A model generated the notes under the pieces. It saw only the letters and a program-made list of their open reading frames with translations, ran no database searches and had not been told where the DNA came from. Source: Aquimarina spinulae (GTDB lineage: Bacteria > Bacteroidota > Bacteroidia > Flavobacteriales > Flavobacteriaceae). From it: 64,000 bases of DNA. The position numbers were made by a program, and so were the translations under genes. Position 1 is the first letter of the stretch, and each line of letters opens with the position of its first letter. Below, one piece after another: positions 5,487-39,730 of this stretch. The DNA is taken from NCBI RefSeq assembly GCF_943373825.1, contig NZ_CALSBP010000003.1, positions 248,001 to 312,000 of the forward strand, in the 5' to 3' direction.

Positions 5487-6176
5487 TTAGCTAAGTAAGT
5501 CATTAATATTTGGCCTATACATTTTCCCCACAGGAATTTTGTGATCCTTGATTGTTATTCGGTTACCTTCAATTAGTTCTATTTTGGTCTTTGCAATAAT
5601 GAATGATTTGTGCACCTTTATAAAATCTTTTTTAGAAAGCATCCCTTCAAAAGAAGATAAGGTTTGATGCGTAATGATCATTTGATGTTCTAAATATACT
5701 TTTACATAATTTCCATATGCTTCTAAGAACAAAAGGTCTTTTAGTTTTACCTGGTAATGCTTTTTGTTGTCCTTTAAAAAAATACTGGAATCATCTATAT
5801 TACTTACGTTTTGCGAATGTAATGACAATATTCCCTGCACTTTTTGTATTGCTGTAACAAAACGCTGAAAACTAAAAGGTTTTAATAAATAATCATCAAT
5901 ATTAAGTTCATAACCTTCTAATGCAAACTCTTTATAGGCAGTAGTTACGATAATCTTAGGAGGATTTGATAGTGTTTTTAAAAAATCAAAACCTGTAAGC
6001 TTAGGCATATTAATATCTAAAAATACTAAATCTACCTGATGATGATTTAGGTATTCTATCGCTTCAAAGGCATTATAACAATGCTTTTGAAGTGATAAAT
6101 AGGGTAAATTACCGCTGTAATCTTCAATAATATCGTGTGAAGCGGTTTCGTCGTCTATTATGATGTAGGTGATCAT
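5487..6176 (-). CDS. LytTR-family response regulator (copy B)
   Basis: A 229-residue regulator. The receiver domain (1-120) has the acidic pair D8/D9, phospho-acceptor D54 in VFLDINMP, T78/T79 in VTTAY and K99 in LLKPF. Residues about 135-229 are a LytTR DNA-binding domain (LEAYGNYVKVYLE, HKSFIIAKTKIELIEGNRI, IPVGKMYR). Its start overlaps the kinase stop by 4 bp, so kinase and regulator are translationally coupled. It is the last gene of the ATPase, permease/M1, kinase, regulator operon. Direct repeats ahead of the operon (11692-11720) have the spacing expected of a LytTR target, so autoregulation is likely. Confidence 0.95.
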   Translation of the reverse strand: MITYIIIDDETASHDIIEDYSGNLPYLSLQKHCYNAFEAIEYLNHHQVDLVFLDINMPKLTGFDFLKTLSNPPKIIVTTAYKEFALEGYELNIDDYLLKPFSFQRFVTAIQKVQGILSLHSQNVSNIDDSSIFLKDNKKHYQVKLKDLLFLEAYGNYVKVYLEHQMIITHQTLSSFEGMLSKKDFIKVHKSFIIAKTKIELIEGNRITIKDHKIPVGKMYRPNINDLLS

Positions 6177-7165
6177 GATTTGTATAATTCTAATTTCACA
6201 AAATATATTTGATTTTGATTGCTAATCGTTAATTTATGTTTACCATTTGGGTAAAGTAAATTAAGGCGATCTTGTAAGTTTTCTAACCCAATACCTCCGG
6301 ACTTTACATGTGTATCGGGATCATAGTTATTTTTGATGGTAAATAGTATTTGGTTGTCATCTTCTTTTAGTTCAATGTTTATAAAAGACTGATTTATAAG
6401 TTTTTCTACGCCGTGCTTAAAGGAGTTCTCTAACAGGATAATAAACAATAACGGAGGGATAGGGTAGTCCTTATTAATAATACTATGCTTAAAATCAATA
6501 TCGATTGCTTTATGATACCTGGCCGTTTGTAACTCAATAAAATTGGTTAAATATTTAATTTCTTCTTCAAGAGGAACAGCTTCTTCTTTTCCATCATAAA
6601 TGGTAAATCTCATCATATCTGAGAGTTTAAGCACATATTCTTGCGCGGTATCAGGATCTTTTTTAATCAATGAGTATAAATTATTAAGCGTATTAAAGAA
6701 AAAATGAGGATTTATTTGAGTTTTTAAAAGTTCTAATTCCGCTTTGACTTTATCATTTTTAAGGGTTTGTACTTTGGTCCACTGTTCAAACCCCCATGAA
6801 AAAATGGTATAAAAAATCAATAGTGCCAGTAATACCCCAAATAAATCTGTAAGCCATATATTATGATTAACTACCCAAAAACTTTCTTGATCATCATCTA
6901 TTCTATTAGCCATATTCATTCCGAAAATCAACAGTCCTATTATAGAAATATATATAATTATTTTTATAGTAGAATTTGGCCAATTTGTTTTTAATTTACC
7001 TGTTTTGAATAGGTAAAATAATAACATATAAGAAATAACTAAACCAGTAAGAAAGTTTAAAAAGATATGTAATTCACTATTGCTATCTTTAAAAATTAAG
7101 CTTAATGTAGCTAAAATTATAGTAAGAATGGTGGTGATATAAAATCTCTTTTTTAATGTCATCAT
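6173..7165 (-). CDS. LytS-type sensor histidine kinase (copy B)
   Basis: A 330-residue membrane kinase with about four TM helices in the first 125 residues and no large periplasmic sensor, followed by a coiled linker and a His_kinase domain. The phospho-accepting histidine sits in QINPHFFFNTLNNLYSL. The ATP-binding part shows the N-box (PPLLFIILLENSFKHGV) and a GGIGLENLQDRL glycine loop. Lack of a periplasmic domain suggests it reads membrane state or a partner protein; the ABC permease encoded 9 bp upstream is the obvious candidate (inference). Two methionines at the start leave the exact first residue open. Confidence 0.93.
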   Translation of the reverse strand: MMTLKKRFYITTILTIILATLSLIFKDSNSELHIFLNFLTGLVISYMLLFYLFKTGKLKTNWPNSTIKIIIYISIIGLLIFGMNMANRIDDDQESFWVVNHNIWLTDLFGVLLALLIFYTIFSWGFEQWTKVQTLKNDKVKAELELLKTQINPHFFFNTLNNLYSLIKKDPDTAQEYVLKLSDMMRFTIYDGKEEAVPLEEEIKYLTNFIELQTARYHKAIDIDFKHSIINKDYPIPPLLFIILLENSFKHGVEKLINQSFINIELKEDDNQILFTIKNNYDPDTHVKSGGIGLENLQDRLNLLYPNGKHKLTISNQNQIYFVKLELYKS

Positions 7166-7174
7166 TCAAATATA

Positions 7175-10100
7175 TTAAAGATTCACAGAAACTATGTTAT
7201 CGGCCATATTTCTATCTAATCTGGTGTAATACGGATCGATGCCGATATAAGCTGGTATTTTCTTGGTAATAATTTTAAAAACCATTTCTGTTTTATTGAT
7301 CTGGTGAGATTCTAAATAGAGGATATCTTTATCATTATTGATAGTTTCCGGATGTTTTTTAAATATTCCAATTTTAATTGGCTCGTTAATATTGATCGTG
7401 ATTTCTTTTCCAGAGCTATCTGTTTCAAATCGTTGTGCTTTTATACCTACCGTAATTTCGTAAGTACCATTACTAAGCTTTTTATAAGAAGTACTCTTAA
7501 TCCTCAAATCATAAGTGATTACACGTTTCATCCAATCATCAATTAGGTTATGATACTTGATGGGAGTAACCAGATACAGCTCTTCAAGAAAATCAAGTGT
7601 TGTTGCAGTCGGTTTATCACTGTATTTATGTATCATATTTTGTAGTGCCGTATTTAAATTAGATTCTCCTATAATATCTTTTATTGCAGACATAACAATA
7701 GCCCCTTTACTATATCCTAAATATTGTTGTAACTGACTTAAGTATAATGAAGGCTCTATTTCGGTGGCATGAGAACGACCACTAAAATATCTTCTTACCG
7801 TATGTTCTGATAGTTGTCTAACCATAGCTTTACCATATAATTTTTCCATAATTACGGTTTCAGAATACTTGGCTAGAGATTCTGATAGTACCATGAATCC
7901 ATCAATTCGCTTTGGGGTAAGTAGCCCTCCCCACCATTGGTGAGCTATTTCGTGAATGATCACTCTGGCAATTACATTAAAGTCTTCTGGGTTTGAAACA
8001 TCTCTTTTAAAAACTTTTTCATTAATACTAATTACACCTGGCATTGCCTGGCCGTTGGCTCCACCACCTCCAAATATTGACATTTCACCAATACGAAGAT
8101 GTTTATGAGGATATTTTCCAAAATTATCGGTTGCATAATCAATAGTTGCTTTAGTCACTTTTATCATTTCTGCGATGTTTCTGTAATGCTCTGGGAGGTA
8201 GTACAATTCAATTTGGATGCCCTTGTGGTTTGTTTTTTCAATTTTATAGCGTGCCGAATGGTATGCCACCATACTGTTAATTTTACCTTTAGATTTATAA
8301 TGATAATAATTTCTATCATTCGATTTCCATTGTTTTATTAAATCTCCAGAGCATAGTACAGATTGATCGTTTGATGTAGAGACTACGGCCTCAAAATCTA
8401 TATTTTCAAAATTAAATTTCCCTCCGATTTGCAAATAGTTGTCATTTACTACTGGTTTTTCTCTTACTGGCAACCCTCGTTTCTCTCGTTCATAAGTATA
8501 ATCAATCTCGTATTGATTTACATAACCCAAATGAGGACTAAATTGATGACTTTTAATATAAGATCCATTATTTGTAATACTATGGTCGATATCAAATCCA
8601 GAAGAACTTTTGGTTAAGTTATATTCCATTTTTAGGATTGACCCTTGTAGCAATGGAGTATGAAGTTTAAATAAGTAAGTTCCTATAATTGAATCATGAA
8701 AAACTTGTGTGCTATTTTCTATAGATAGTTTTTTTAGTGGTATCGGTGTAGTAATAAAGATTTCTTTTATAGGTTCGGTGCCTGTATTCGTTATCAAACA
8801 GGAAGCTTTTACTTCATATTTATGTTGATTTGGAAAAATATCTACTGCTGTTTGTACAGAGATTAATTTTGGTACTGCCAGATGATCATATTTTTTATAT
8901 GCACGTTCATATTTCTCATTAAAATCATATGCTTCATCTGCTATTTCATATTCATTGATCATGTTAGTATTATAGTAGATATAGCTCCCGATAGTTACGA
9001 ATAGAAAAACAAAGCTTATCAATAGTACTCTTTCTTTTTTACTCCATATCATTCTAGTGTATGTTCTGATAGTAGAAATGGTTCCTCTTTTCCATAATTT
9101 AAAACCGAACAGGGCTATTATTCCTGCAAAAGTGATCCAATACAAGGATAACCAGTTAAATTTCACAACATATTGTCCGTATGCATTAAAATCAGAATAC
9201 GTTCTGGCCATACTGGGTAGGTTATTGAAAAGAACCAAAGGATGTTCTAACCCTATGCTATTGCTCAAAGGGCCAAATAATAGCATAATACCTCCGGAAA
9301 TGACCATTCCTAAATACTTATTAGAGACTATATTCTGAATTAACAGTGCAAAAATTGTGTATAATAAAACCTGAAGCCCTCCGAAGTAGAACATCGAAAA
9401 ATAATGAGTTAATTCTATATCGTAATAACCATTTGAAAGCTGAAATGTTATTGCAACAAATATTGATATTAAAATAAGTAGTATAGGGATTATAGCTATT
9501 GTAATATACTTAGAAATAAAAAATGTACTATTTTTTGTAGGTGTTCCCTCAATAATCTCATGAAACTTATTAGATCTTGATTTCCATACCATCTCACCAG
9601 TATAAAAAACAATGAGTAGCAATCCCATTATTGGTAAAATTTCATGAATTAAACCTATAAACAGGTCTGTAGTAGGGTAACGATTTCCGTAAATACCAAA
9701 GCTACGTACGCTATTATTAAATGCCAGTACAATCATAGCAATCCATAATAATATAATGATCAGAAATGGAATTCCTGTAATTATCATTTTTGTATCTAAT
9801 ACTACAATCGATCTAATGCGTGCTATTCTTGCTGCTAATGTATCCGAAATAGTAGTTACAGGTGTATAAGTCGAATTACTAGTTGTATCTTCTATAGATA
9901 TAACTTGTTTTTTTACTTTTTGATTGAGTTTCCTGAAATAGAACAATCGATAGGATACTACTATAGATACAACACTAAAGAAGATCCAAATAACTCTGTT
10001 CCATACAAAATGTCCTGATAGTGAAATAAGAGTTTCGTTTTTTTCTATTGGTGTTAAGAACTGAGTTTGTTCAAAAAAAGCACTTAACCCTATTGGATCT

Positions 10101-10744
10101 ACTAAAGACGCAATTTCTAAAATCTCTGGATCAGAAAGTATAGAACCACCAACTAGAGGAGAATTAATATAGAACCCCGAAATCCAATGAATAGCAATAA
10201 GCAAGAGCCCGATGATATATGTCACTATTGCTTTTTGAGATAGGAGTGTTGCCGAGAATAGAATAGCAGTACAGATAAAAGCGTTAGGGACTATAATTGT
10301 TAACCAGGGCCATAGATAATGACTTATGTTAAAATGATGTAATGCCTCTGGATTTTGATGGGCAATGTTTGTTCCAATAAAGACCCCTAATAAACCACTG
10401 CTACCAATGAGAAGAGATACCAAAAAGAGACCTAGAAAGCGATTGATTAAAAAACTATGTTTTTGTATTCCTGTACTAAAAATTATTTCTTTGGAATGAA
10501 AAGTTGTATCCCGAAGTAATCCATTCACACAAAAAAATATACTGGCAAATACAACGCCTATACTAATAATGCCTGATAGAAAACTTAAATTATAAGCATC
10601 GTTATACATGCTGCTGAATTCTAAATATTGAAAAGCTTGTGTAATGGCAAGGACACCATATCCTATAAACAATATTAGAAATAGTATGAAGGAAGTTTGG
10701 CGAGTATGATATTGCCATTCGAACTGAAGTAATTTCGTAGTCAT
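7175..10744 (-). CDS. ABC-2 type permease fused to M1 aminopeptidase (copy B, complete)
   Basis: An 1189-residue fusion. About the first 600 residues are two blocks of roughly six hydrophobic helices each, as in ABC-2 permeases, ending with a lone TM helix (LLISFVFLFVTIGSYIYY). The remainder is an extracytoplasmic beta domain plus M1 peptidase: HEIAH at 931-935, downstream glutamate in LSESLAKYSE, and YSKGA with the probable catalytic tyrosine. The spacing from second zinc histidine to glutamate is one longer than the textbook HExxH-x18-E, and the GxMEN loop is replaced by QAMPGVISINE. Predicted role: a transporter half whose own outer face carries a peptidase. It begins 2 bp after the ATPase stop. 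Substrate unknown. Confidence 0.9.
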   Translation of the reverse strand: MTTKLLQFEWQYHTRQTSFILFLILFIGYGVLAITQAFQYLEFSSMYNDAYNLSFLSGIISIGVVFASIFFCVNGLLRDTTFHSKEIIFSTGIQKHSFLINRFLGLFLVSLLIGSSGLLGVFIGTNIAHQNPEALHHFNISHYLWPWLTIIVPNAFICTAILFSATLLSQKAIVTYIIGLLLIAIHWISGFYINSPLVGGSILSDPEILEIASLVDPIGLSAFFEQTQFLTPIEKNETLISLSGHFVWNRVIWIFFSVVSIVVSYRLFYFRKLNQKVKKQVISIEDTTSNSTYTPVTTISDTLAARIARIRSIVVLDTKMIITGIPFLIIILLWIAMIVLAFNNSVRSFGIYGNRYPTTDLFIGLIHEILPIMGLLLIVFYTGEMVWKSRSNKFHEIIEGTPTKNSTFFISKYITIAIIPILLILISIFVAITFQLSNGYYDIELTHYFSMFYFGGLQVLLYTIFALLIQNIVSNKYLGMVISGGIMLLFGPLSNSIGLEHPLVLFNNLPSMARTYSDFNAYGQYVVKFNWLSLYWITFAGIIALFGFKLWKRGTISTIRTYTRMIWSKKERVLLISFVFLFVTIGSYIYYNTNMINEYEIADEAYDFNEKYERAYKKYDHLAVPKLISVQTAVDIFPNQHKYEVKASCLITNTGTEPIKEIFITTPIPLKKLSIENSTQVFHDSIIGTYLFKLHTPLLQGSILKMEYNLTKSSSGFDIDHSITNNGSYIKSHQFSPHLGYVNQYEIDYTYEREKRGLPVREKPVVNDNYLQIGGKFNFENIDFEAVVSTSNDQSVLCSGDLIKQWKSNDRNYYHYKSKGKINSMVAYHSARYKIEKTNHKGIQIELYYLPEHYRNIAEMIKVTKATIDYATDNFGKYPHKHLRIGEMSIFGGGGANGQAMPGVISINEKVFKRDVSNPEDFNVIARVIIHEIAHQWWGGLLTPKRIDGFMVLSESLAKYSETVIMEKLYGKAMVRQLSEHTVRRYFSGRSHATEIEPSLYLSQLQQYLGYSKGAIVMSAIKDIIGESNLNTALQNMIHKYSDKPTATTLDFLEELYLVTPIKYHNLIDDWMKRVITYDLRIKSTSYKKLSNGTYEITVGIKAQRFETDSSGKEITININEPIKIGIFKKHPETINNDKDILYLESHQINKTEMVFKIITKKIPAYIGIDPYYTRLDRNMADNIVSVNL

Positions 10745-10746
10745 GA

Positions 10747-11631
10747 TTAGTATAGTATTGATTGTTTATTAATTGTAGAAAAATAGACATCTTCTAAATC
10801 TGGTTTAGAAGCTTTAAATCCTTGTTCTGGCCGATGATCTGCTAATACGCGAAGTTCTATTTTACCACCAAATAATCGAGTTGATAAGACATTAAAGGCA
10901 TTTTTGAAAGCCAAAACATTTTCTTTGGCGACAACCTTATGCCATATTTTACCTTCTAAGTGAGTAATAAGTTCTGAAGGAATACCTTGTTTTAGTATTT
11001 TCCCTTCTCCCATAATTGCCATATGAGCGCATAGATTTTTAATATCTTCAACAATGTGGGTAGAAAGAATGATAATTCTATGTTCTCCGATTTCACTTAA
11101 TAAATTATGAAAACGATTACGTTCCTCTGGATCTAAGCCTGCAGTGGGTTCGTCTACAATAATAAGTTTGGGATCGCCTAGCAATGCTTGTGCAATACCA
11201 AATCGCTGACGCATACCACCAGAGAAGGTCTTTACAGACTTTTTTCGTACTGCATATAGATTCGTTTGATGTAATAAGCCTTCTATCTGTTCTTTACGTT
11301 CTTTGCTATTCAATATGCCTTTTAGTACGGCGATATGATCTAATAATCGAATTGCTGATATTTTGGGATATACTCCAAATTCTTGAGGTAGATATCCTAA
11401 TTGATTTCGAATAATTTGTGGTTCCTTATTACTATGTGTATCATTAAATAATATGCTTCCCTGAGTAGGCTCTTGTAGTGTAGCTAAAGTACGTATTAGT
11501 GAAGATTTCCCTGCTCCATTAGGACCTAATAACCCGAACATACCATTGGTAATCGTTAGATTGATACCCTGTAATGCTTTTACTCCGTTGGGATACGTTT
11601 TAGATAGATTTTCAATTTTTAAAGTATTCAT
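10747..11631 (-). CDS. ABC transporter ATP-binding protein (copy B)
   Basis: A 294-residue ATPase that powers the adjacent permease/M1 fusion. Walker A is GPNGAGKSS near residues 36-44, the signature is FSGGMRQR, Walker B is LIIVDEPTAGLDP and the H-loop is ILSTHIVED. The residues after about 215 form the C-terminal extension seen in antibiotic/Na+ export ATPases. I start it at MNTLKIENL (11631), because the two paralogues at 35224 and 63340 begin at the same point; an in-frame methionine at 11676 would add 15 residues lacking a counterpart. First gene of its operon; LytTR-like repeats lie 61-89 bp upstream. Confidence 0.93.
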   Translation of the reverse strand: MNTLKIENLSKTYPNGVKALQGINLTITNGMFGLLGPNGAGKSSLIRTLATLQEPTQGSILFNDTHSNKEPQIIRNQLGYLPQEFGVYPKISAIRLLDHIAVLKGILNSKERKEQIEGLLHQTNLYAVRKKSVKTFSGGMRQRFGIAQALLGDPKLIIVDEPTAGLDPEERNRFHNLLSEIGEHRIIILSTHIVEDIKNLCAHMAIMGEGKILKQGIPSELITHLEGKIWHKVVAKENVLAFKNAFNVLSTRLFGGKIELRVLADHRPEQGFKASKPDLEDVYFSTINKQSILY

Positions 11632-11673
11632 AGGATTCGTTTTAATTGATGGTACGAACCTACTTATAGCATC

Positions 11674-11681: not shown

Positions 11682-11691
11682 GCTATTTATT

Positions 11692-11720
11692 TTGATGAAC
11701 GTCCTTTAAGTGTTGATGAA
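11692..11720 (-). promoter_or_regulatory. probable LytTR operator: two half-sites, 21-bp period
   Basis: The 8-mer TTGATGAA occurs at 11692-11699 and again at 11713-11720, exactly 21 bp apart (top strand). On the strand of the leftward ABC/LytTR operon each reads TTCATCAA, fitting the window-wide half-site TTCRTNRA. The inner copy ends 61 bp before the ATPase start codon. Two helical turns between half-sites is the arrangement bound by AgrA/ComE-type LytTR proteins, so the operon's own regulator (5487-6176) is the natural candidate. Confidence 0.6.
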
Positions 11721-11932
11721 AAATCAATAGAAAGAGACATAGTTTTATGATTACATGATGTTGTATTGTTTTGTAATAAAGCTATTTAATGATATAATGC
11801 CCTCAATAAAAATGAGTATAGGTAAGTAATTAGGTATTATTTATATATTAGCCCCTATCTATCAAAGTGTAGTTTTTTGATACTGAAGATGTATATTATT
11901 AACGATCTAAATACTAAGAGGAAGATAAATTA

Positions 11933-12433
11933 ATGAGATCATCAAAGAAAAAGAGGTTTTCAATTTTATTTGATAAACATTACAAAAAACTCTTCAATTA
12001 TTCTTTTAAGGTGGTTAAAGAAAGAGATCTTTCTCAAGAATTGGTACAAGAAACGTTTATTAAACTTTGGGAAAAAATAGAGCAAGTTCAATCAAATGAT
12101 CGTTCGATAGAATCATTTCTTATTGTCACTTTAAAGAATAAGATAATTGATCATACTAGAAAACATAAAACCCGGAAAAAACATACCAATTTATATTCAC
12201 TAAACCGGGATATACAAGAAAACATAGATAATAAATGGGAGCTGTCACAAAAAATAGATAGTATTTATGCTTCACTTCCTCCCAAAACGATAGAAATATT
12301 TAGATTATCAAGAGATCAGGGATTTACTTATCAGGAGATTGCTATACAAAAAAATATTTCTGTAAAAACAGTAGAACTTCATATTTCTAAGGCTTTAATA
12401 GCATTTAGACAAGGGTTACAAGATTATTTATAA
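11933..12433 (+). CDS. ECF-type RNA polymerase sigma factor (FecI-like)
   Basis: A 166-residue sigma-70 family protein. Region 2 is visible at FSILFDKHYKKLFNYSFKVV through LVQETFIKLWEKI, and region 4 at LPPKTIEIFRLSRDQGFTYQ followed by the helix-turn-helix IAIQKNISVKTVELHISKAL. A purine-rich ribosome site (AAGAGGAAG) lies 8 bases ahead of the chosen ATG. Immediately followed by a FecR-type anti-sigma gene (53 bp gap) and a TonB receptor, the standard Bacteroidota surface-signalling arrangement. It should direct transcription of the receptor operon when the receptor is occupied. Confidence 0.93.
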   Translation: MRSSKKKRFSILFDKHYKKLFNYSFKVVKERDLSQELVQETFIKLWEKIEQVQSNDRSIESFLIVTLKNKIIDHTRKHKTRKKHTNLYSLNRDIQENIDNKWELSQKIDSIYASLPPKTIEIFRLSRDQGFTYQEIAIQKNISVKTVELHISKALIAFRQGLQDYL

Positions 12434-12486
12434 TTTTTGATAGGGTGTAACTATATGGCAAACGTCTTATAGTAAAATACCTTATT

Positions 12487-13464
12487 ATGGAACAGGATCA
12501 AATAACAGAAGTAGACATTTGGGGATATATCTCAAAAAGCGCAGATACAGCTACGAATGAAAGAGTAGAACAATGGATGAATTCTGATGAATTTAATGAG
12601 GATTTATTTAATAAAATGAAGAATGTTTATAAGGTCACTGGTGAAGCTCCAGAGAGTAGTGATTTAGAAACAAATATTGCTAAACAAAGATTTTTTAATT
12701 CGATAGAAAATAAAGAAAGAAAAAAATCTAGCTTGAAAATGATCATAAAGTATGCAGCTGTAGTAGCGATTTTAGTATCAACTGCTGTATATACCTATCA
12801 AATAACAATACCAAATGATATTATAAGTATTGAGACTGCGTATAGTGATCATGAACAAATACATCTTCCTGATGGTTCTGTAGTTTGGTTAAATTCTTCA
12901 AGTAAGCTGTCTTACAATCCAAAATCTCCAAGAACACTATTTTTAGATGGTGAGGCTTTTTTTGAAGTAGCAAAAGACAAAGAACACCCTTTTACTGTAG
13001 AGACGCCAGATCATGTTATAGTAAAAGCTTTGGGAACAAGTTTTAATGTAAAATCGTATGCAAAAAATACATTTACAGAAACGGTATTGTTAACCGGTAA
13101 AGTCGAAGTGAGCTCTAAGGAGTATTTAAAAAATAACATCATAATGCTTCCAAATGATAAAGTGAAGATTTTTAAGAATGATGGACGCGTACTTACTTCA
13201 AAATCCAATAATGCTGTTAGTAGTATTGCCTGGAGAGCGGGTAAAATACAATTCAATAATAAACCATTTTTGGAAATAGCTAATGATTTAAAAATTCAAC
13301 ATAATGTTAATATACGTTTTGAAAACGCACAAATATCCAATTCAAAATTTACCGGATCCTTTAATCAAGATTTACCAATTAATGACATTCTGGAAGTATT
13401 AAAAGCTTCAAAAGATTTTAAATATGAATATAATACAAAAGCAAATGAGTGGATAATAAAATAA
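12487..13464 (+). CDS. FecR family anti-sigma / sigma regulator
   Basis: A 325-residue single-pass membrane protein. The cytoplasmic N-terminus (1-90) precedes one TM helix at about 91-107 (AAVVAILVSTAVYTY). The periplasmic FecR domain follows with HEQIHLPDGSVVWLNSSSKL, LDGEAFFEVAKD and ALGTSFNVKSY, all hallmark strands. The last about 70 residues (IQFNNKPFLEIANDL... ILEVLKASKDFKYEY) are the DUF4974/STN-like tail that pairs with the receptor's signalling domain. It transmits receptor occupancy to the sigma factor encoded just upstream. Confidence 0.93.
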   Translation: MEQDQITEVDIWGYISKSADTATNERVEQWMNSDEFNEDLFNKMKNVYKVTGEAPESSDLETNIAKQRFFNSIENKERKKSSLKMIIKYAAVVAILVSTAVYTYQITIPNDIISIETAYSDHEQIHLPDGSVVWLNSSSKLSYNPKSPRTLFLDGEAFFEVAKDKEHPFTVETPDHVIVKALGTSFNVKSYAKNTFTETVLLTGKVEVSSKEYLKNNIIMLPNDKVKIFKNDGRVLTSKSNNAVSSIAWRAGKIQFNNKPFLEIANDLKIQHNVNIRFENAQISNSKFTGSFNQDLPINDILEVLKASKDFKYEYNTKANEWIIK

Positions 13465-13468
13465 AAAA

Positions 13469-13492
13469 GTGGGAAAACTGCCATTTTCCCAC
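13469..13492 (+). terminator. hairpin between FecR and TonB receptor genes, without U-tract
   Basis: A perfect 9-bp stem, GTGGGAAAA (13469-13477) with TTTTCCCAC (13484-13492), closes a 6-base loop 4 bp after the FecR stop. No run of T follows, so it is unlikely to be a strong intrinsic terminator. It may be an mRNA-processing or partial-attenuation element that lets the receptor be expressed at a level different from the regulators; that is inference. Confidence 0.45.
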
Positions 13493-13550
13493 CGATGTGT
13501 CAATACTATTCTAATCGCGAAATCAGTAATAATTAACAACATTCAAATTT

Positions 13551-16262
13551 ATGAAAATAAAACAGTTCGTTCTGTCTTGGCAGGTAAAAAAACCTGGCAA
13601 AAAAAGTATTTTATTAATGAAATTATCCTTTTCTCTTTACCTACTAGGTTGTTTACAACTCATGGCTATCAATGGCTTTTCTCAGGATAAGGTTACATTA
13701 AATCTCGAGAATACTCAATTAGAAACCATATTAAAACAAATAGAGAAACAAACTTCATATAGTTTTATTTATAATAATGATGAAATTAATGTATTGCAAA
13801 AACTTGATATTGAAGTGGTTGACATAGATGTAGCTAAAACACTTAATGAATTATTGCAAGCTACCTCGATTAAATATCTGGTAAAGAATAGTTTTATTAT
13901 ACTTTCTAATCATTCACAACAAAAAAATAAATATACCCTAAGTGGAACAGTGAAAGATGCCGCAACAGGTGAAACGCTACCTGGAGCTAGTGTCTATGTA
14001 AAGGATAGCGATAAAGGAGTTACTACCAACGAATATGGTTTTTATTCTATTACACTTCCAGAAGGTAATTATAGTTTTCAAATTTCATATTTAGGATATA
14101 CTCTAAAAGAGATAAAAATTGAATTAACCAAGAATATAAAACTCGATATACAGCTAGAACCAGCTTCTAATGAATTAGATGAAGTAACAATTACTGCTAA
14201 TAATGAAAATAAAAGTCAGGTGAATACGATTGCATCTGGTGTTTCTACTTTAAAGGGTTCTGAAATTAAACGATTACCGGCTTTTTTGGGAGAACCTGAT
14301 ATTATGAGAGCATTATTAACACTTCCTGGTGTAAATACGATTGGAGAAGGCGCTTCGGGAATTAATGTTAGAGGCGGTAATATAGATCAAAACCTAGTGC
14401 TATTAGATGAAGCCCCAATTTATAACCCGACTCATGTATTTGGGTTGTTTTCAGGATTTAATACAGATGCTATTAAAGAAATGAAATTATATAAAGGAGG
14501 AATTCCTGCGCGATTTGGAGGTAGAGCATCTTCTGTTATAGAAATTAGACAACGGGACGGAAATACTAAAACTTTTAAAGGAGAAGGAGGATTAGGACTA
14601 TTGTTTTCGAGGCTTACGCTAGAAGGACCAATAAAAAAGGAAAAATTAAGTTTTTTGATTTCTGGTCGTAGATCTTACTTTGATGTATTTTTTCCAATTA
14701 TAGGAGGACAAGTAAAAGATCAAAAAGTTTTCTTTTATGACCTGAGTTCTAAACTTAGCTGGAAGATTAATAAAAACAATACCTTGTTTTTGTCAGGCTA
14801 TTTTGGAGCCGATGTTATGAAATTATTTTTTGAAGGAGAAGTTATTCCAGAAGGTAAAGAGCCTGATGACAAAACAGATTTTAGTTGGAAAAATGCTACA
14901 GCTACATTACGTTGGAATCACGTATTCTCAAACAAGTTATTTATGAACGTTTCTGGAATATATAGCCAATACAATTATAATTTAAAAAGTACTGATGGAG
15001 GACCTCTAGATACCAATAGTAGTATAAAATGGAAATCTTCTATAGAAAACTTTATCGTAAAACCAGATTTTACTTATTACCTCAATCCTAGTACAAAAAT
15101 GAGATTTGGAATAAACGGTACACTATATCGTTTTACTCCGGCAAAGGCTACTAGTGATGATATTGGTATCAATACTATAAATTTTGAAACAGAAAAAGGA
15201 GTAGAAGTTGCACCATATATAGAATATGAAAAAAAATGGAACAGATTTTCATTTAGTACCGGATTGCGATATTCCTGGTTTGGTAATTTTGGCTATAATA
15301 AAGTTGCAGTGTACAGTCCTGGGGTTCCGCAAAATGTAACTACCATTATAGATACTCGTGAGTATAAAAAAGGAAAACTTATTAAGAGTTATAATGGTTT
15401 TGAACCTCGAGTTTCATTAAAATATAATTTAAAAAATAATAAAGCATTAAAGTTAGGGTACAATAGGATGTTTCAATACATTCATTACATATCAAACACA
15501 ACGGCAGCTTTTCCTTTCGATGTATGGAAACTATCGGGAACACATATAAAACCTTTAGAAGTACATCAGATTTCTGGCGGGTATGCGTATGATACACCGA
15601 ACAAACGCTATAATTTTACTGTCGAAGGATATTATAAAACTTTCAAAAATATAGTAGAGTATAAAAATGGGGCAAACCTATTATTAAATGAAAATATAGA
15701 AACACAATTATTACCTGCAAAAGGGTATTCTTACGGAACAGAATTTGGAGCTTATAAAAATACAGGAAAATTAAGAGGAAGTATTAATTATACCTATGCT
15801 GTTACTAGAAGAAAAACAACCAGTATTTTTCCTTCAGATAATATTAATGACAGTAGATACTACCCATCAAATTATGATCGACCACATGTTTTTAATATAA
15901 CTACCGATTATGAATTAGGGACAAAGTGGAATGTAGGACTGTTCTTTACATACCAATCGGGAAGACCTGTAACAAAACCTACAGGGCGATTTATTTTTGA
16001 TAACAATCCGTATTTAACCTATTCAGATAGAAATGCATATAGGTTACCCAGTACGCATAGAATGGATATTTCATTTACATACACTCCAAAAAGACCTAAT
16101 AAAAAATGGAAGGGTAGTTGGTCTTTTGGGCTCTATAATCTGTATGCCCGTAAAAATGCTTTTTCATCTTTCTCGATATTTAAAAATAATCGATTAAGAT
16201 CCTATGATTTTTATCTAATTGGTGCACCTGTACCTTTTATCACGTACAATTTTAAATTTTAA
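13551..16262 (+). CDS. TonB-dependent outer-membrane receptor with STN signalling domain
   Basis: A 903-residue receptor. After a long basic n-region and signal peptide (cleavage near INGFSQ, about residue 45) comes an STN/secretin-like signalling domain (VTLNLENTQLETILKQIEKQ), then a carboxypeptidase-regulatory-like beta domain (GTVKDAATGETLPGASVYV), the plug (GVNTIGEGASGINVRGGNID), and a 22-strand barrel to the C-terminal aromatic residue (FITYNFKF). The STN domain with the upstream FecI/FecR pair means the receptor both imports and signals. The partner downstream is a DUF4249 lipoprotein rather than SusD, so the ligand is probably not a typical glycan; it is unknown. Confidence 0.93.
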   Translation: MKIKQFVLSWQVKKPGKKSILLMKLSFSLYLLGCLQLMAINGFSQDKVTLNLENTQLETILKQIEKQTSYSFIYNNDEINVLQKLDIEVVDIDVAKTLNELLQATSIKYLVKNSFIILSNHSQQKNKYTLSGTVKDAATGETLPGASVYVKDSDKGVTTNEYGFYSITLPEGNYSFQISYLGYTLKEIKIELTKNIKLDIQLEPASNELDEVTITANNENKSQVNTIASGVSTLKGSEIKRLPAFLGEPDIMRALLTLPGVNTIGEGASGINVRGGNIDQNLVLLDEAPIYNPTHVFGLFSGFNTDAIKEMKLYKGGIPARFGGRASSVIEIRQRDGNTKTFKGEGGLGLLFSRLTLEGPIKKEKLSFLISGRRSYFDVFFPIIGGQVKDQKVFFYDLSSKLSWKINKNNTLFLSGYFGADVMKLFFEGEVIPEGKEPDDKTDFSWKNATATLRWNHVFSNKLFMNVSGIYSQYNYNLKSTDGGPLDTNSSIKWKSSIENFIVKPDFTYYLNPSTKMRFGINGTLYRFTPAKATSDDIGINTINFETEKGVEVAPYIEYEKKWNRFSFSTGLRYSWFGNFGYNKVAVYSPGVPQNVTTIIDTREYKKGKLIKSYNGFEPRVSLKYNLKNNKALKLGYNRMFQYIHYISNTTAAFPFDVWKLSGTHIKPLEVHQISGGYAYDTPNKRYNFTVEGYYKTFKNIVEYKNGANLLLNENIETQLLPAKGYSYGTEFGAYKNTGKLRGSINYTYAVTRRKTTSIFPSDNINDSRYYPSNYDRPHVFNITTDYELGTKWNVGLFFTYQSGRPVTKPTGRFIFDNNPYLTYSDRNAYRLPSTHRMDISFTYTPKRPNKKWKGSWSFGLYNLYARKNAFSSFSIFKNNRLRSYDFYLIGAPVPFITYNFKF

Positions 16263-16266
16263 GACT

Positions 16267-26987: not shown

Positions 26988-27017
26988 AAAACAATACTAT
27001 TTAAAAAAGTAAACAAA

Positions 27018-27581: not shown

Positions 27582-27627
27582 GTATACTGGCTATTCCATC
27601 TGATCTCTAAAACAATAATATTAACAG

Positions 27628-28188: not shown

Positions 28189-28265
28189 GAAGAAACCATA
28201 ATTGTCAAATAAAAAGAGATGTGAACTCAATAATTTTGGGGATCAAACAACGATAAATATAACAG

Positions 28266-30767: not shown

Positions 30768-30769
30768 AC

Positions 30770-31483: not shown

Positions 31484-33194
31484 GAACATCATTTATATGG
31501 GTATAGCAGTTCTTGTGGGACTATTAGGAGGTTACTTTATTTTTGGCAGTAATAATTCTACAAAACACAATCACAATATTGATCAGGAAGAGGTCACAAC
31601 AAATCAAATGTGGACCTGCTCTATGCATCCTCAAATCATGCAGACAGAACCTGGTGATTGTCCAATATGTGGTATGGATCTAATTCCGGCAGGAACCAAA
31701 ACAGATGGCCTATCTGCCGATCAATTTAAAATGACCGAGAATGCTATGGCATTAGCAAATATCCAAACTACTAGTATTGGTGACCTAACAACAAGTGATA
31801 AAAATAGGGTTATGTTATCTGGGAAAATAATGGAAAATGAAGAGGCAAATGCAGTACAGGCCAGTTATTTTGATGGTAGAATCGAACGGTTGAATGTTAA
31901 TTATAAAGGACAAGAAGTTAGAAAAGGGCAAAAATTAGCAACTATATATGCCCCAAACCTAGTCGCTGCACAACAAGAACTTATTACTGCAGTATCACTT
32001 AAAGAATCTCAACCAATACTATATAAAGCTGTTCGTAATAAATTAAAGTTATGGAAACTTTCAGACAATCAAATCAAAGCTATAGAGTCTTCTGGTAAAG
32101 TTCAGGAAAACTTTCCTGTTTATGCAACCGTTTCGGGTACGGTTTCAGAAGTAATGCGTGCGGAAGGAGATTATGTAAAACAAGGGCAGCCTATTTTAAA
32201 AGTAAGCAACCTTAGTACAGTATGGGCAGAATTTGATGTGTATGAAAACCAAATTGCACAATTTAAAAAAGGACAGCAAATCAATATTACTACTACAGCC
32301 TATCCCGACAAAAAATTTGAAGGCACAATTTCTTTTATAGACCCGACTTTAAATACTAAAACGCGAACAGTTACTATAAGAACTAATCTTAATAACCGTG
32401 ACCACCTTTTTAAACCAGGAATGTTTATAACCGGTAGTGTTGCAAGTAAAAATAAGACTACAGAACAACTTATTGTTCCGGCAAGTGCTGTGTTATGGAC
32501 AGGTGAGCGCTCTGTGGTATATATAAAAACAAGTGCTAAAGAACCCATTTTTGAAATGAGAGAAGTAGTATTGGGAAATGCTACAGGAAATACATATATA
32601 ATTCTGAATGGACTGGATAATGGTGATGAGATCGTAACTAATGGAGCATTTACTGTTGATGCAGCTGCACAATTACAGGGTAAAAAATCAATGATGAACA
32701 AAGAAGGAGGGAAGACTATGACTGGTCATGAAGGACATATGGGAATGCAAATGGAAGTATCAAAGTCATTTCAGAAAGATTTTTCACCAGCCTTTATACC
32801 ATATTTACAAATGAAAGATGCATTTGTGGATTCTAATGCTTCTCAGGTTTCTATTTCTGCGAAAGCAACAAACAAAATCTTAAAAGCAATTAAAGCTTCA
32901 AACCTGAATAAGGTAGAAAAAACTTATCTTACTAAGAGTATTAGTATATTAGACCATCTTGCTAATGCCGAAGAATTAGAAAAACAAAGAACCTATTTTG
33001 TATCATTGAATGAGAATATAGTAGCGTTAATATCCAACTTTACTGAATTAAATACAGCAATGTATGTACAAAAATGCCCAATGGCGAATACCAATAAAGG
33101 AGCTATTTGGATAAGTAAGGAAAAAGAAATTCGTAACCCTTATTTTGGTGACGCAATGCTAACTTGTGGTAGCGTTATTAATACAATTAAATAG
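31476..33194 (+). CDS. cusB: CusB-like periplasmic adaptor with heavy-metal-binding and DUF3347 domains
   Basis: A 572-residue membrane-fusion protein. An N-terminal anchor helix (IYMGIAVLVGLLGGYFIFG) precedes a metal-binding module (WTCSMHPQIMQTEPGDCPIC, GMDLIPAG). The adaptor core follows: lipoyl/barrel and hairpin (IERLNVNYKGQEVRKGQKLA, YATVSGTVSEVMRAEGDYVK, TVWAEFDVYENQIAQFKKGQ). After about residue 410 a Met/His-rich linker (TGHEGHMGMQMEV) leads to a C-terminal DUF3347 domain ending in CPMA...NPYFGD...LTCG, as in 27018-27581. Bridges the pump and TolC-like channel and delivers Cu/Ag. Last gene of the operon. Confidence 0.92.
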   Translation: MNRNIIYMGIAVLVGLLGGYFIFGSNNSTKHNHNIDQEEVTTNQMWTCSMHPQIMQTEPGDCPICGMDLIPAGTKTDGLSADQFKMTENAMALANIQTTSIGDLTTSDKNRVMLSGKIMENEEANAVQASYFDGRIERLNVNYKGQEVRKGQKLATIYAPNLVAAQQELITAVSLKESQPILYKAVRNKLKLWKLSDNQIKAIESSGKVQENFPVYATVSGTVSEVMRAEGDYVKQGQPILKVSNLSTVWAEFDVYENQIAQFKKGQQINITTTAYPDKKFEGTISFIDPTLNTKTRTVTIRTNLNNRDHLFKPGMFITGSVASKNKTTEQLIVPASAVLWTGERSVVYIKTSAKEPIFEMREVVLGNATGNTYIILNGLDNGDEIVTNGAFTVDAAAQLQGKKSMMNKEGGKTMTGHEGHMGMQMEVSKSFQKDFSPAFIPYLQMKDAFVDSNASQVSISAKATNKILKAIKASNLNKVEKTYLTKSISILDHLANAEELEKQRTYFVSLNENIVALISNFTELNTAMYVQKCPMANTNKGAIWISKEKEIRNPYFGDAMLTCGSVINTIK

Positions 33195-33234
33195 AAAAGG
33201 TAAGAAGAAGAAACATCATCTTTTAATACTAATA

Positions 33235-33963
33235 CTATTTTTTAATAGCATTGGTTAAGTTATGTTTATAAACATTACCGATAGGAATATCGATTCCTGT
33301 TATTTTTAAACGATTACCTTCAATAGTTTGTATTTTTTTAAGAGCGATTATATAGGAACGATGTATTCTTAAAAATTGATTTTTTGGTAAAGTGTTTTCA
33401 AAATTGGTTAACCTGTCTAATGATGTAATGGTTTCATTTTCCAGATGTATTTTGACATAACTTCCTAAACTTTCTAGATATAAAATACTGTTTAATTGAA
33501 TTTGATGCACTTTTTTGTCTCCTTTTATAAAAATACTATCATTTTGATTTACAGTGTTTTTTGGATTTGAGGAAACTTGATTTTCTGTTCCATTCTGCAA
33601 ACTATCTATCATTTTCTTTTGACTCTGGGCTTTATTTATAGCTTTTAAAAACCGCTCAAAACTAAAAGGTTTTAAGAGATAATCCAGAATGTTTAGTTCA
33701 TAACCTTCAATAGCATATTCTTGATACGCTGTAGTTACAATAATTAAAGGAGGATTACTTAGGGTACGTAAGAAATCCAATCCTTTAAGCTTGGGCATAT
33801 TGATATCTAAAAAAATTAAATCTACCTGATTGTCATTTAAATAATTCATAGCTTCAAATGCCGAATAACATTCTTTTACAACATTTAAAAATGAAAGGTT
33901 GGCACAATAGTTTTTTATCACTTTATGTGCCAAAGGTTCGTCATCTATTGTTATGCAGTTCAT
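33235..33963 (-). CDS. LytTR-family response regulator (copy C)
   Basis: A 242-residue regulator with D7/D8, phospho-acceptor D53 in FLDINMP, VTTAYQEYA, and LLKPFSFERF in the receiver, a linker rich in N and Q (about 120-145), and a LytTR domain (LESLGSYVKIHLENETITSL, HRSYIIALKKIQTIEGNRL, IPIGNVYK). Close in sequence to the copy B and D regulators. Its start overlaps the kinase stop by 4 bp. Converges with the copper operon, whose last stop is 40 bp away. Confidence 0.94.
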   Translation of the reverse strand: MNCITIDDEPLAHKVIKNYCANLSFLNVVKECYSAFEAMNYLNDNQVDLIFLDINMPKLKGLDFLRTLSNPPLIIVTTAYQEYAIEGYELNILDYLLKPFSFERFLKAINKAQSQKKMIDSLQNGTENQVSSNPKNTVNQNDSIFIKGDKKVHQIQLNSILYLESLGSYVKIHLENETITSLDRLTNFENTLPKNQFLRIHRSYIIALKKIQTIEGNRLKITGIDIPIGNVYKHNLTNAIKK

Positions 33964-35000
33964 TCTAGATTTAGTTTTAAATCAACAGTAAAAACAGTAC
34001 CTTTTTTACTAATTTTTAGTTCATGTGCATTTGGATAAATTAAAGATAATCTTCTTTTTACATTTTCAAGACCAATCCCTCCATCATCTCCATTTTCTGT
34101 ATCACTAAAATTATTTTCAATATACAGATGTGCTAATTTTTCTGTTGTTTGTAGTTTAAAGTTTATAAATGCATTTTTTTCCATGAGATCAAAACCATGT
34201 TTAAATGCATTTTCTAAAAATACAATTAAGATCATAGGTGCGATTTGTTTTGTCTCGTTATCTACCTTCTTTTCGAAAGTAATAATTCCACGGTTATGAT
34301 GCCTCATTTTTTGCAGTTCAATAAAATTTTCTAAATATGTTACTTCTCCACCAATAGATACTCTGGGTTCTTTGCAATCATAGATTGTATAACGCATTAT
34401 TTCAGACAATTTCAAAATTAATGATGGTGTTTTATCAGATTTTTCAAGAGAAAGTGCATACAAGTTATTTAATGTATTAAAGAAGAAATGCGGATTGATT
34501 TGATTCTTTAGTAATGACAATTCTAAATGAAGACGATCATTTTCGATTTGATTTATTTTAGAGAGTTGAATAAACCATCGATAGGATAAGTTTAATAATG
34601 TAGAAATCAGTATAATAACACTCATACCTGTAATCCCTTTTTCTGGTTCCATTTCCTGGTATGGTTCATTAAACCAATAGTGATCCATTAAGGGTTCGCC
34701 ATATCCTATAATACATCCCCAACCAATGATTACGATAAGAAGTAATATAACATAAATGAAATATCGTTTTTTCACTAAATACCTAGGTATAATCCAATAT
34801 ACATTAAAATAAATAGGAGGAGCTATTAATAAAAGGATACTCGAAGCAGCTTGAAGAAAATAATTGGTTAAGAAAGATAGAGTAAATGTATTTTTATCAG
34901 AAATAACAAAACCTAGTACAGCTAATAAAATGATACTAGACAATACTGAAACATGAATAAGAATATTTTTTTTTCTGGTATCTAGTGATTGGATTTTCAT
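33960..35000 (-). CDS. LytS-type sensor histidine kinase (copy C)
   Basis: A 346-residue kinase with about four TM helices (residues 10-150; for example SSIILLAVLGFVI and YVILLLIVIIGWGCIIGY), a short loop between helices, and a His_kinase domain: QINPHFFFNTLNNLYALSLE with the phospho-histidine, APMILIVFLENAFKHGF as N-box and GGIGLENVKRRLSLIYP. It is divergent from the ABC ATPase of copy C across a 223-bp region that carries three 21-bp-spaced LytTR-like sites. Confidence 0.93.
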   Translation of the reverse strand: MKIQSLDTRKKNILIHVSVLSSIILLAVLGFVISDKNTFTLSFLTNYFLQAASSILLLIAPPIYFNVYWIIPRYLVKKRYFIYVILLLIVIIGWGCIIGYGEPLMDHYWFNEPYQEMEPEKGITGMSVIILISTLLNLSYRWFIQLSKINQIENDRLHLELSLLKNQINPHFFFNTLNNLYALSLEKSDKTPSLILKLSEIMRYTIYDCKEPRVSIGGEVTYLENFIELQKMRHHNRGIITFEKKVDNETKQIAPMILIVFLENAFKHGFDLMEKNAFINFKLQTTEKLAHLYIENNFSDTENGDDGGIGLENVKRRLSLIYPNAHELKISKKGTVFTVDLKLNLE

Positions 35001-35028
35001 AGTAATGTATTCTTGGAAATAAAAATAT

Positions 35029-35036
35029 TAAAACTA
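35029..35036 (-). promoter_or_regulatory. candidate -7 element for the copy C kinase operon
   Basis: On the minus strand the sequence is TAGTTTTA, one base off TAnnTTTG. It lies 28 bp ahead of the kinase start and about 20 bp inside the nearest LytTR-like half-site. Confidence 0.3.
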
Positions 35037-35055
35037 TTGGAGTTTGACTATTCTA

Positions 35056-35106
35056 ATTAACGAATACCATATTTTCATCAATGAAACTACGTTTTTTATC
35101 AACGAA
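35056..35106 (-). promoter_or_regulatory. probable LytTR operator: three half-sites, 21-bp period
   Basis: Three 9-mers fit ATYAAYGAA on the top strand: at 35056-35064, 35077-35085 and 35098-35106, each exactly 21 bp from the next. On the strand of the kinase/regulator operon they read TTCGTTAAT, TTCATTGAT and TTCGTTGAT, close to the [TA][AC][CA]GTTN[AG][TG] element of known LytTR proteins. The inner site ends 56 bp before the kinase ATG. A fourth match, TTCATTAAT, lies in inverted orientation at 35112-35120. The region is shared with the divergent ATPase gene, so both transcripts may be controlled. Confidence 0.7.
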
Positions 35107-35223
35107 CAGCATTCATTAATAATAATAGACCTTTTAACCATTTATATCGAGGAGTTGGTTAAAAAAAATTGATTTCTTCTTTCTCTTACCTTCTTTTTGT
35201 TGCTGACTTTAAATCAATAGCTT

Positions 35224-36105
35224 ATGGAATTAGTAATCAAAAATTTATGCAAAACATATTCAAACGGAGTAAAAGCATTAGATAATCTTTCCCTCGAAAT
35301 TTCTAACGGAATGTTTGGTTTGTTGGGTCCGAATGGAGCTGGAAAATCATCACTCATGAGAACGTTAGCCACCTTACAGGAGGCAGATAGTGGTACACTA
35401 TATTTGAATGATATCAATATTCTCGAAAATCCAATTGAATTGCGAAAAGTATTAGGGTATTTACCACAAGAATTTGGAGTATACCCAAAAATTACTGCAA
35501 AGCAATTACTAGATCATTTAGCAATATTAAAGGGAATAACCAATAACAAAGAAAGAATAGAATTAGTGAATTTTTTATTGCAAAAAGTAAATCTATATGA
35601 AAAAAGAAACAAAAGTGTAAAAGGTTTTTCTGGTGGGATGAAACAAAGAATTGGTATTGCTCAAGCCTTAATTGGCAATCCTAAACTAATTATTGTTGAT
35701 GAACCTACTGCGGGATTAGATCCCGGAGAAAGAAATAGATTTCATAACCTTCTCGCAGATGTCGCAGAAGATGTTATTATTATTCTTTCTACACATATTG
35801 TAGAAGATGTGAGAGAATTATGCCAAAATATGGCAATCATGAATCAAGGGAAACTAATTTGTAAAGGTAGACCACAACATGTAATCGATGAATTAAATGA
35901 TAAAGTATGGCAGAAGTTAATTGAACGAAATGAACTAGAAGATTACAGTAATCAACATATGATTATCTCTAATAAAATGGTTGGTGGTAAACCATTGATT
36001 CATGTTTTAAGTGACATAAAACCAGGAGTAGGGTTTACTCTTGTTCCACCAACTCTGGAAGATGTGTTTTTTTCCAAAATTAATACGACCAGAGAAGTAA
36101 TTTAA
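35224..36105 (+). CDS. ABC transporter ATP-binding protein (copy C)
   Basis: A 293-residue ATPase: Walker A GPNGAGKSS, Q-loop segment GYLPQEFGVYPK, signature FSGGMKQR, Walker B LIIVDEPTAGLDPGE and H-loop LSTHIVEDV, with a 75-residue C-terminal extension ending in LEDVFFSKI. Same length and architecture as the copy B ATPase. It precedes the permease/M1 fusion by 31 bp and energises it. Divergent from its kinase/regulator pair. Confidence 0.94.
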   Translation: MELVIKNLCKTYSNGVKALDNLSLEISNGMFGLLGPNGAGKSSLMRTLATLQEADSGTLYLNDINILENPIELRKVLGYLPQEFGVYPKITAKQLLDHLAILKGITNNKERIELVNFLLQKVNLYEKRNKSVKGFSGGMKQRIGIAQALIGNPKLIIVDEPTAGLDPGERNRFHNLLADVAEDVIIILSTHIVEDVRELCQNMAIMNQGKLICKGRPQHVIDELNDKVWQKLIERNELEDYSNQHMIISNKMVGGKPLIHVLSDIKPGVGFTLVPPTLEDVFFSKINTTREVI

Positions 36106-36136
36106 AATTGTATTAACCAACTTAAAACGTAACATT

Positions 36137-39100: not shown

Positions 39101-39730
39101 AAACAGTATCTGAACTATGATTTCGAAAAATATCTAAAAGGTAGAAGTGCTGAAACCGAAAAAGAATTGCCGCTGTATAAAGTAGAAGATCAAGGGTATA
39201 TTCATTATGGTAAGGGAAGTGTTGTGCTGTATGCTTTACAAGATTATATAGGAGAAGATAAAATGAATACTGCTTTAAAAAACTTTTTGGATGAATATAA
39301 ATATAAAGAACCACCCTATCCAACAACGCATGATTTTCTAAGACATCTGAAACCGCAAGTTCCCGATTCATTAAATTACTTGATAACCGACTGGATAAAA
39401 GAAATCACCTTATATGATTATCGTTTAAAAGATGCTACGTATAAAAGGAAAGAAAATGGGAAATATGAAGTCTCCATGGATATTGAAGCATATAAAATAA
39501 AAGTCGATAGTTTAGGGGTCGAAAACAAGGTGAGTCAACGTGATTGGGTAGATATAGGAGTATACAGAGATACAGATGAAAAGCACTTAATTTACTCAAA
39601 AAGAGTCCTTTTTGTCGATGAGAAAATGAATTTCTCTTTTGAGGTTGATACCATTCCTGCAAAAGCTGTAATCGATCCAAAACGATTATTAATAGAAAGA
39701 GTAATCGACGATAATAGTAAAGAATTTTGA
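36137..39730 (+). CDS. ABC-2 type permease fused to M1 aminopeptidase (copy C, complete)
   Basis: An 1197-residue fusion: two blocks of about six TM helices in the first 560 residues, a further TM helix (YALTLITVFCLFFLTSCFVY), a beta domain, then the M1 peptidase. Zinc motif HEMAH at 943-947, second glutamate in LSESFSEYAAL, and Y/KG in HYGKGSVVLYAL. As in copies A and B, 19 residues rather than 18 separate the second histidine from the glutamate and the GxMEN loop is absent (AFPGTMPYTE in its place). More diverged from A and B than they are from each other. All metal ligands are intact, so it is probably an active peptidase facing outward. Confidence 0.9.
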   Translation: MFKSFLFKEIAMGIKRPMIYIFFFIFTIIATIGVINDNIVFGGAIGNVLKNAPHVITMYVANMSIFGLLIATAYFNNAALRDYQNHFDEILFSTPIDKASYFFGRFFGALFLSTIPLLGVLLGFLIGSDIGSESGMINANRIGDLQLSFFINNYFLYVLPNMFVSGAIIYAVALKWKSTIISFIATIIIIIGYLVAGTFLTDISTEYLAALTDILGVRAYQIDSKYFTSVEKNTNVISASGWLFINRILWVIIGLVIIISSYLSFSFIQKNKKVEKEKKVNKKEQSIRIFNLPKVQSSFNFTTSKKQFISFFKINFYTILKSNTFKIMLIVGALLLVNKLLNGFDFYGVKSYPVTYKMLDFNRPVSTIFGMIMLVFFSGELVWRERSSNISGVIDGSPHSSIVLLLAKITSLIAINVIFDMFLILISISYQLFSGYTSPDIDVYLLDFIYSGLSMYIAWSCILVFIQIIINHKYISYFISILLLFLFEFVIVDALGIESFMLNLGFTPNYQYSDMNGFGAALVSKNWFSLYWILFGFSLITIGSLLWIRGSVKGIKDRIKSAKKHFVKKYALTLITVFCLFFLTSCFVYYNTQVVNSYKSANEIEVMQVSYEKMYKKFENIPQPKFGDVTYEVDIYPEERNLLAKTHTVLLNKTNVAIDVLHYSISRYYATEKWDITLKIPNANLVFEDKELGYLIYKLDTPLQPGSKIDIVIEAVYKSQGFENSVSNLRVAKNGTFIQEAYILPTIGYDENNELMDQNDRKKYNLPVRKQMALLRTNDNINTKQNYFTEGESDWVNVETIISTSSNQIAIAPGTLIKEWKANGRSYFKYKNDHSSLNFVNFMSAEYEVSRKKWNGIDIEVYYHKDHDYNIDMMLDAIEESLKYYTKNFGPYVHNQARIIEIPRYYNFAQAFPGTMPYTEGGGFTTDLSNKNDNNIIEAIIAHEMAHQYWAHQVVGANMQGATMLSESFSEYAALMVMKNRIKDDRKMKQYLNYDFEKYLKGRSAETEKELPLYKVEDQGYIHYGKGSVVLYALQDYIGEDKMNTALKNFLDEYKYKEPPYPTTHDFLRHLKPQVPDSLNYLITDWIKEITLYDYRLKDATYKRKENGKYEVSMDIEAYKIKVDSLGVENKVSQRDWVDIGVYRDTDEKHLIYSKRVLFVDEKMNFSFEVDTIPAKAVIDPKRLLIERVIDDNSKEF

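Follow-up and report, generated by a model that had tools for sequence, protein, structure and literature searches.

Results

The stretch analysed here (the window) comprises 64,000 nucleotides of Aquimarina spinulae, C3:248001-312000, where C3 is contig NZ_CALSBP010000003.1 of a 6.24 Mb genome in three contigs. It carries repeated copies of a cassette encoding a LytS-type histidine kinase, a LytTR response regulator, an ABC ATPase, and an ABC permease fused in a single chain to a zinc peptidase of family M1. We find that the ATPase and the fusion are the constant core of this cassette and that the kinase/regulator pair is an optional yet non-random partner. The analysis establishes the order of the genes, the integrity of their motifs, a predicted topology and fold, the lack of a GxMEN motif in the M1 part, a kinase subfamily and operator-like repeats. 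The architecture and the kinase association are well supported; as for the mechanism, we infer a self-regulated, BceS-like sense-and-respond exporter-peptidase module, a tentative reading to which we give slightly less than an even chance. Cleavage right at the exit of an ABC exporter, or an exporter-driven protease, would be an unusual way of handling membrane peptides. The fusion is found in several phyla, and the kinase subfamily with its recognisable candidate operators offers an experimental handle on substrate and signal.

Cassettes in the genome

Once the flanks of the window are included, the genome holds four complete cassettes, A to D (Table 1). An earlier note on this DNA had described the module as complete twice and partial at both edges; this is borne out, its gene coordinates for B and C match the open reading frames (ORFs) and domains found, and the edge pieces belong to the complete cassettes A, whose ATPase, kinase and regulator sit just left of the window start, and D. 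Cassette B is one operon-like run in the order ATPase, fusion, kinase, regulator, and the other three are divergent. On contig C2, beside hemB, lies a fifth fusion, E, which has the ATPase and lacks kinase and regulator. The cassette ORFs of this genome are free of stops; every copy tested keeps the Walker motifs of the ATPases, the H, N and G boxes of the kinases and the acceptor Asp of the regulators, and HEXXH is kept in all five fusions. Each kinase/regulator pair, with a His_kinase (PF06580) gene beside a Response_reg plus LytTR gene, has the gene make-up of a LytTR two-component system. The closest relative of fusion B, 99% identical, is named Aquimarina megaterium.

Two candidate assignments were rejected. 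ATPases B and E score far under the curated cut-offs for GldA/DrrA membership. As for a defence system, PADLOC matched neither of the fusions B and C, nor kinase B, nor regulator B, and ATPase B matched generic ATPase models.

Neighbourhood of the fusion

The phylum sample consisted of 198 genomes and yielded 65 fusions scoring above 500 bits in 48 genomes besides our own, and all 65 loci were inspected. The ATPase adjoins 62 of them, and a kinase and regulator lie at most four genes away in 19. In a second set of 80 named loci, 77 fusions were read; the ATPase is adjacent in 65 and the kinase pair is present in 20 (Bacteroidota 17/45; Balneolota 2/2, probably identical to two phylum-sample loci; Pseudomonadota 1/21; others 0/9). 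As a control, 16 arbitrarily placed 20-kb regions from 15 fusion-bearing genomes contained neither a kinase nor a regulator gene. On a tree of fusions, the linked state (25 of 70 rows) takes 8 changes, compared to 20.8 in shuffles.

The adjacency could be incidental, a product of local LytS/LytTR expansion, as the genome has 66 LytTR and 56 LytS-type matches, dense around the window. We consider this very improbable. Although such pairs are common, one adjoins four of the five fusions of this genome, the pattern recurs in other genomes and no control region has it, so the adjacency is not due to chance; the same divergent order in several families, the kinase clade and the enriched operator repeats described below also speak against incidental neighbours. 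The neighbourhood check across Bacteroidota that the earlier note had called for thus reveals a recurrent unit, with kinase co-occurrence beyond chance. Its statement that the four partners keep together holds for four of five copies here and for only about 30% of the phylum-sample fusions, and the kinase pair is not the fixed partner it had assumed.

A search of open-access literature, covering titles and the openings of abstracts, showed among the papers listed none that deals with the fusion or with its link to a kinase. Mutations of LytTR and kinase in F. johnsoniae are reported in PMC10197871, whose available part mentions neither an ABC transporter nor an aminopeptidase.

Kinase subfamily

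Kinase B has four hydrophobic segments, and the kinases of this genome have three to six by a simple hydropathy scan with no convincing further domain; the description of a membrane kinase lacking a large sensor domain therefore stands. In a quick tree without bootstrap of 43 linked and 71 other kinases, 33 of the 43 fall in one clade of 37 (SH-aLRT 95), including those of A to D and one from Pseudomonadota. With a background mainly from one genome, 33 of 43 had likewise formed a clade, one free of background kinases; adding 20 kinases from other genomes, the top profile hits, placed four unlinked ones in it. Some of the ten linked kinases outside the main clade are probably separate recruitments, and others (L115, L121) are perhaps mere chance neighbours. 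With a linked-kinase profile run on the 198 genomes, the best 16 matches are all linked, nine of which were in the profile. Ranks 17 to 37 hold one linked kinase (L070) and 20 unlinked ones, so the profile does not single out linked kinases past the top.

The four unlinked clade members each adjoin a hydrolase gene, of beta-lactamase fold in L215, L216 and L218 and of calcineurin type in L217. The L217 phosphoesterase gene lies divergently next to its kinase, a related orphan, and the product is 37% identical over 278 aa to that of cassette D, an ankyrin-calcineurin protein whose N-terminus resembles a signal peptide. In L098, a close relative of A, an S41 peptidase gene stands where D has its phosphoesterase gene. 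Given these neighbours, what unites the kinase family may be less the exporter than a hydrolase that is exported, where export is read from the N-termini. The beta-lactamase-fold neighbours of L215, L216 and L218 are homologous, and no fusion is nearby. Two more LytS/LytTR pairs lie in the window at 19649-21327 and 52558-54940, beside OMP_b-brl_3 outer-membrane proteins, and in L214 (C1:439000-454000) a single LytTR gene is followed by four consecutive LytS-type kinase genes.

Comparison with Bce modules

The usual Bce kinase and regulator classes differ from LytS and LytTR, which the cassette employs. Its permease is moreover of type V rather than FtsX/MacB, with the peptidase covalently attached. 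The likeness to BceAB-BceS-BceR lies in a transporter beside a kinase without a dedicated sensor domain, the latter being how the available part of PMC10314905 describes the two-component system of Bce modules. The resemblance suggested by the earlier note is thus retained for the sensor-poor kinase and lost for the permease; Bce modules provide the best functional analogy, and the permease fold and the kinase class argue against counting the cassette among them.

A Bce-like detoxification of a foreign antimicrobial peptide, in which the transporter would free the target or remove the peptide and signal its own flux to the kinase, would draw on the same pairing of sensor-poor kinase and transporter and on the fact that most linked kinases form one subfamily. 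We hold it to be unlikely, as the permease fold and both regulatory classes differ and most fusions have no kinase pair.

Co-variation of the partners

Over 39 full cassettes, the rank correlation is 0.92 for kinase/regulator, 0.83 for ATPase/fusion and 0.40-0.50 for the cross pairs; every pair beats all 2000 permutations, which leave shared species history in. Kinase/regulator and ATPase/fusion each co-vary tightly, and the two pairs only loosely with each other. Cassette B illustrates this: its fusion groups with A and its ATPase falls in the A-type set (SH-aLRT 97), whereas its kinase is in the D-type clade (SH-aLRT 97); the regulator tree leaves B unresolved. Co-variation, for which the earlier note had suggested trees of kinase, ATPase and permease as a test, is found among all partners, in two loosely joined halves.

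Candidate operators

Upstream of linked cassettes, direct repeats occur at a lag of exactly 21 bp in 12 of 35 regions, a set that includes E, two D regions, an M1-less module and orthologous pairs, compared to 0-5 regions at the other 29 lags; in 100 shuffles of this set the count at that lag had a mean of 1.9 and a maximum of 7. A second cut, which overlaps the first and leaves out A to D of this genome, gave such repeats in 16 of 40 linked regions and in 14 of the 84 unlinked ones (one-sided Fisher p 0.005), where other lags from 15 to 30 gave 2-6 and 3-11, respectively. The unlinked set thus peaks at lag 21 as well. Repeats of this period were found for A, B and C. B and C have a TTTCATCAA-like half-site in common, and scanning the window for the pair derived from them returned 4 sites against 0.58 expected, three of them within the B and C promoters. 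LytTR repeats are 9 bp with 12-bp gaps in the available part of PMC6193735. The 21-bp-period repeats have the spacing known from LytTR operators and are candidate operators, whose enrichment upstream of linked cassettes is well supported.

LytTR regulatory systems (LRS) have, as far as the available sources describe them, the same repeat spacing upstream of their operon, and some are tied to ABC genes. They employ a membrane inhibitor instead of a histidine kinase, and the cassette, with its kinase and receiver domain, is therefore not an LRS.

LytTR regulators also control bacteriocin genes in S. mutans (PMC6193735, available part), and the cassette joins exporter and peptidase in a single chain, as would suit export and trimming of a self-made peptide signal or bacteriocin sensed by the kinase. 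We find this distinctly unlikely: among neighbour families of at least 60 aa present at no fewer than 6 loci, with shorter ORFs and rarer families outside the scan, none was typical of linked cassettes and none resembling a precursor stood out.

Permease part

The permease consists of two tandem transmembrane domains (TMDs) with 12-13 transmembrane segments by hydropathy and predicted structure. It models as a two-TMD type-V exporter, not of BceB/MacB type: the predicted fold agrees with a type-V ABC exporter TMD, nearest to a mycobacterial efflux pump, NosY and PmtCD, and the best full-length fold match of the fusion model is that efflux pump (8k1p). We take 8k1p, PmtCD, NosDFY and ABCA to belong to the class named type V. 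The cassette shares their predicted TMD fold and differs in carrying both TMDs and a peptidase on a single chain, with a separate ATPase. No FtsX/MacB-type Pfam match was obtained at E 0.001 in the cassette proteins.

About 7 kb from cassette A, at C3:231545-236010 (L011 3545-8010), lies a divergent LytS/LytTR and ABC ATPase set whose permease has 516 aa and no M1 part; its promoter region has a perfect 9-bp repeat of 21-bp period. As ancestor of the fusion this module was rejected, since its permease has no significant alignment to the fusions.

Peptidase part

The fusions of this genome score 58-71 bits for PF01433 (cut-off 27.7) and make up 5 of the 10 matches above cut-off genome-wide. HEXXH is present in 141 of 145 fusion sequences and the third Glu in 140, at a spacing of 19 in 132 and 20 in 8. 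An M1-family enzyme fused to the permease, as first noted, is thereby confirmed. The fusions share the fold of domains I-III, HEXXH and the downstream Glu with M1 metallopeptidases (APN, ERAP, LTA4H, M1dr), and differ in the ligand spacing of 19-20 instead of 18 residues, in being joined to an exporter, and in two losses. First, none of the 141 sequences has MEN among the 65 residues before HEXXH, although the genome's own canonical M1 protein L001 carries GGMEN; for this we rely on the missing motif and on an ungapped reading between conserved residues, as hhalign of the M1 part with the genome's M1 proteins aligned the fold and left the motif region gapped. An RIxE pattern occurs in 110 of the 141, and its Glu might, from sequence, replace that of GxMEN, for which the available part of PMC10343166 proposes a role in GAMEN-type motifs. 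Second, the C-terminal helical domain IV is absent, the 1189-residue chain of fusion B ending after beta strands in the AlphaFold2 model. M1dr likewise has no domain IV and, in the available description, no domain III either. Because the motif and the lid domain IV are both missing, the label 'aminopeptidase' is doubtful, in the earlier note as in the NCBI name 'ABC transporter permease/M1 family aminopeptidase', which several close relatives bear. That name denotes the same fused protein, covers neither the missing GxMEN nor the kinase link, and may be wrong for the family.

The missing lid also suits a scheme without export, in which the ATP cycle of the type-V TMDs would open and close the tethered peptidase; the latter would act on lipoproteins or membrane proteins from the periplasmic side, with the transporter standing in for domain IV. 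In the fusion B model the M1 part is connected to the final membrane helix through a helix at residues 602-619, the fold is near NosY, which comes from a complex solved bound to NosZ (by the title of the structure entry), and ATPase and fusion co-vary tightly. With an efflux pump as the best full-length fold match, we nevertheless rate such mechanotransmission as rather improbable.

Proposed mechanism

For direction of transport, substrate, peptidase specificity, signal and activation by the regulator, we infer the following. The ATPase, presumably dimeric, would power the two-TMD type-V exporter, which would extrude a membrane-associated peptide or lipopeptide, and the M1 zinc peptidase at its periplasmic end would cut the emerging substrate, acting probably as an endopeptidase or with an atypical specificity. 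Where a kinase is linked, this small membrane LytS protein would read the substrate or the working state of the exporter, much as BceS does with BceAB. The LytTR partner of the kinase would bind the 21-bp-spaced direct repeats and raise transcription of the cassette.

Several points weigh against this sense-and-respond module. About 70% of fusions have no kinase pair, so the core function does not require sensing, and the cross-pair co-variation is modest. No operator repeat was found for cassette D, even the looser setting gives none in 24 of the 40 linked regions, and the Fisher test counts related loci as independent. Fusions L064 (G099) and L077 (G108) have altered zinc ligands in the M1 part and are possible pseudoenzymes on the same exporter, to judge from these residues. 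Lastly, the M1 part could be mechanically coupled instead of supplied with exported substrate. A wider idea, to which we assign a small chance, is that the fusion would be an ATP-gated periplasmic endoprotease, in which the type-V exporter takes over from the lost M1 lid and links ATPase turnover to the cutting of membrane-anchored substrates, and that the LytS/LytTR subfamily would be a general sensor of one envelope state, paired with various exported hydrolases (the M1 fusion, an S41 peptidase, a calcineurin-type phosphoesterase and a beta-lactamase-fold hydrolase).

Table 1 Features of cassettes A to D. Positions are those of the window unless prefixed with C3.
Feature	Position	Strand	Details
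Cassette A, whole	C3:242870-249384 (L011 14870-16743 + L012 918-5384)	divergent	mostly left of window
A permease-M1 fusion, M1 end (last 460 residues)	2..1384	+	PF01433 58 bits; full ORF C3:245809-249384
B LytTR response regulator	5487..6176	-	PF00072 + PF04397; phospho-acceptor Asp
B LytS-type histidine kinase	6173..7165	-	PF06580 92.9 bits; NPHFFFN, N and G boxes
B permease-M1 fusion, 1189 aa	7175..10744	-	PF01433; AlphaFold2 pLDDT 86.8, pTM 0.83
Fusion B permease part, residues 1-600	8945..10744	-	predicted two six-helix TMDs + 13th helix
Fusion B M1 zinc-peptidase part, residues 613-1189	7178..8908	-	domains I-III, without domain IV; HEIAH ~7940-7954
B ABC ATPase	10747..11631	-	ATG start 11631; PF00005 106 bits; Walker A and B
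B candidate LytTR operator	11692..11721	-	9-bp direct repeats, 21-bp period
C LytTR response regulator	33235..33963	-	PF00072 + PF04397
C LytS-type kinase	33960..35000	-	PF06580 81.7 bits
C candidate LytTR operator	35052..35104	+	two good half-sites + weaker third, 21-bp period; between divergent genes
C ABC ATPase	35224..36105	+	PF00005 100 bits
C permease-M1 fusion, 1197 aa	36137..39730	+	PF01433 62 bits
Cassette D, whole	C3:307255-315916	divergent	
D LytTR response regulator	59255..59956	-	PF00072 + PF04397
D LytS-type kinase	59953..61152	-	PF06580 89.9 bits
D ankyrin-repeat + calcineurin-like phosphoesterase gene	61320..63275	+	PF12796, PF00149; between kinase and ATPase
D ABC ATPase, start	63340..63999	+	PF00005; runs on to C3:312239
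D fusion	C3:312284-315916		after ATPase D, right of window

Other genes in the window

Beside cassette B, at 11933-17100, lies a set of ECF sigma factor, FecR, TonB-dependent receptor and DUF4249 genes. A heavy-metal efflux cluster at 22039-33194 encodes an RND pump, an outer-membrane efflux protein, a P-type ATPase with HMA domain, a CusB/HlyD-like protein, a DUF3347 protein and an AraC-type regulator.
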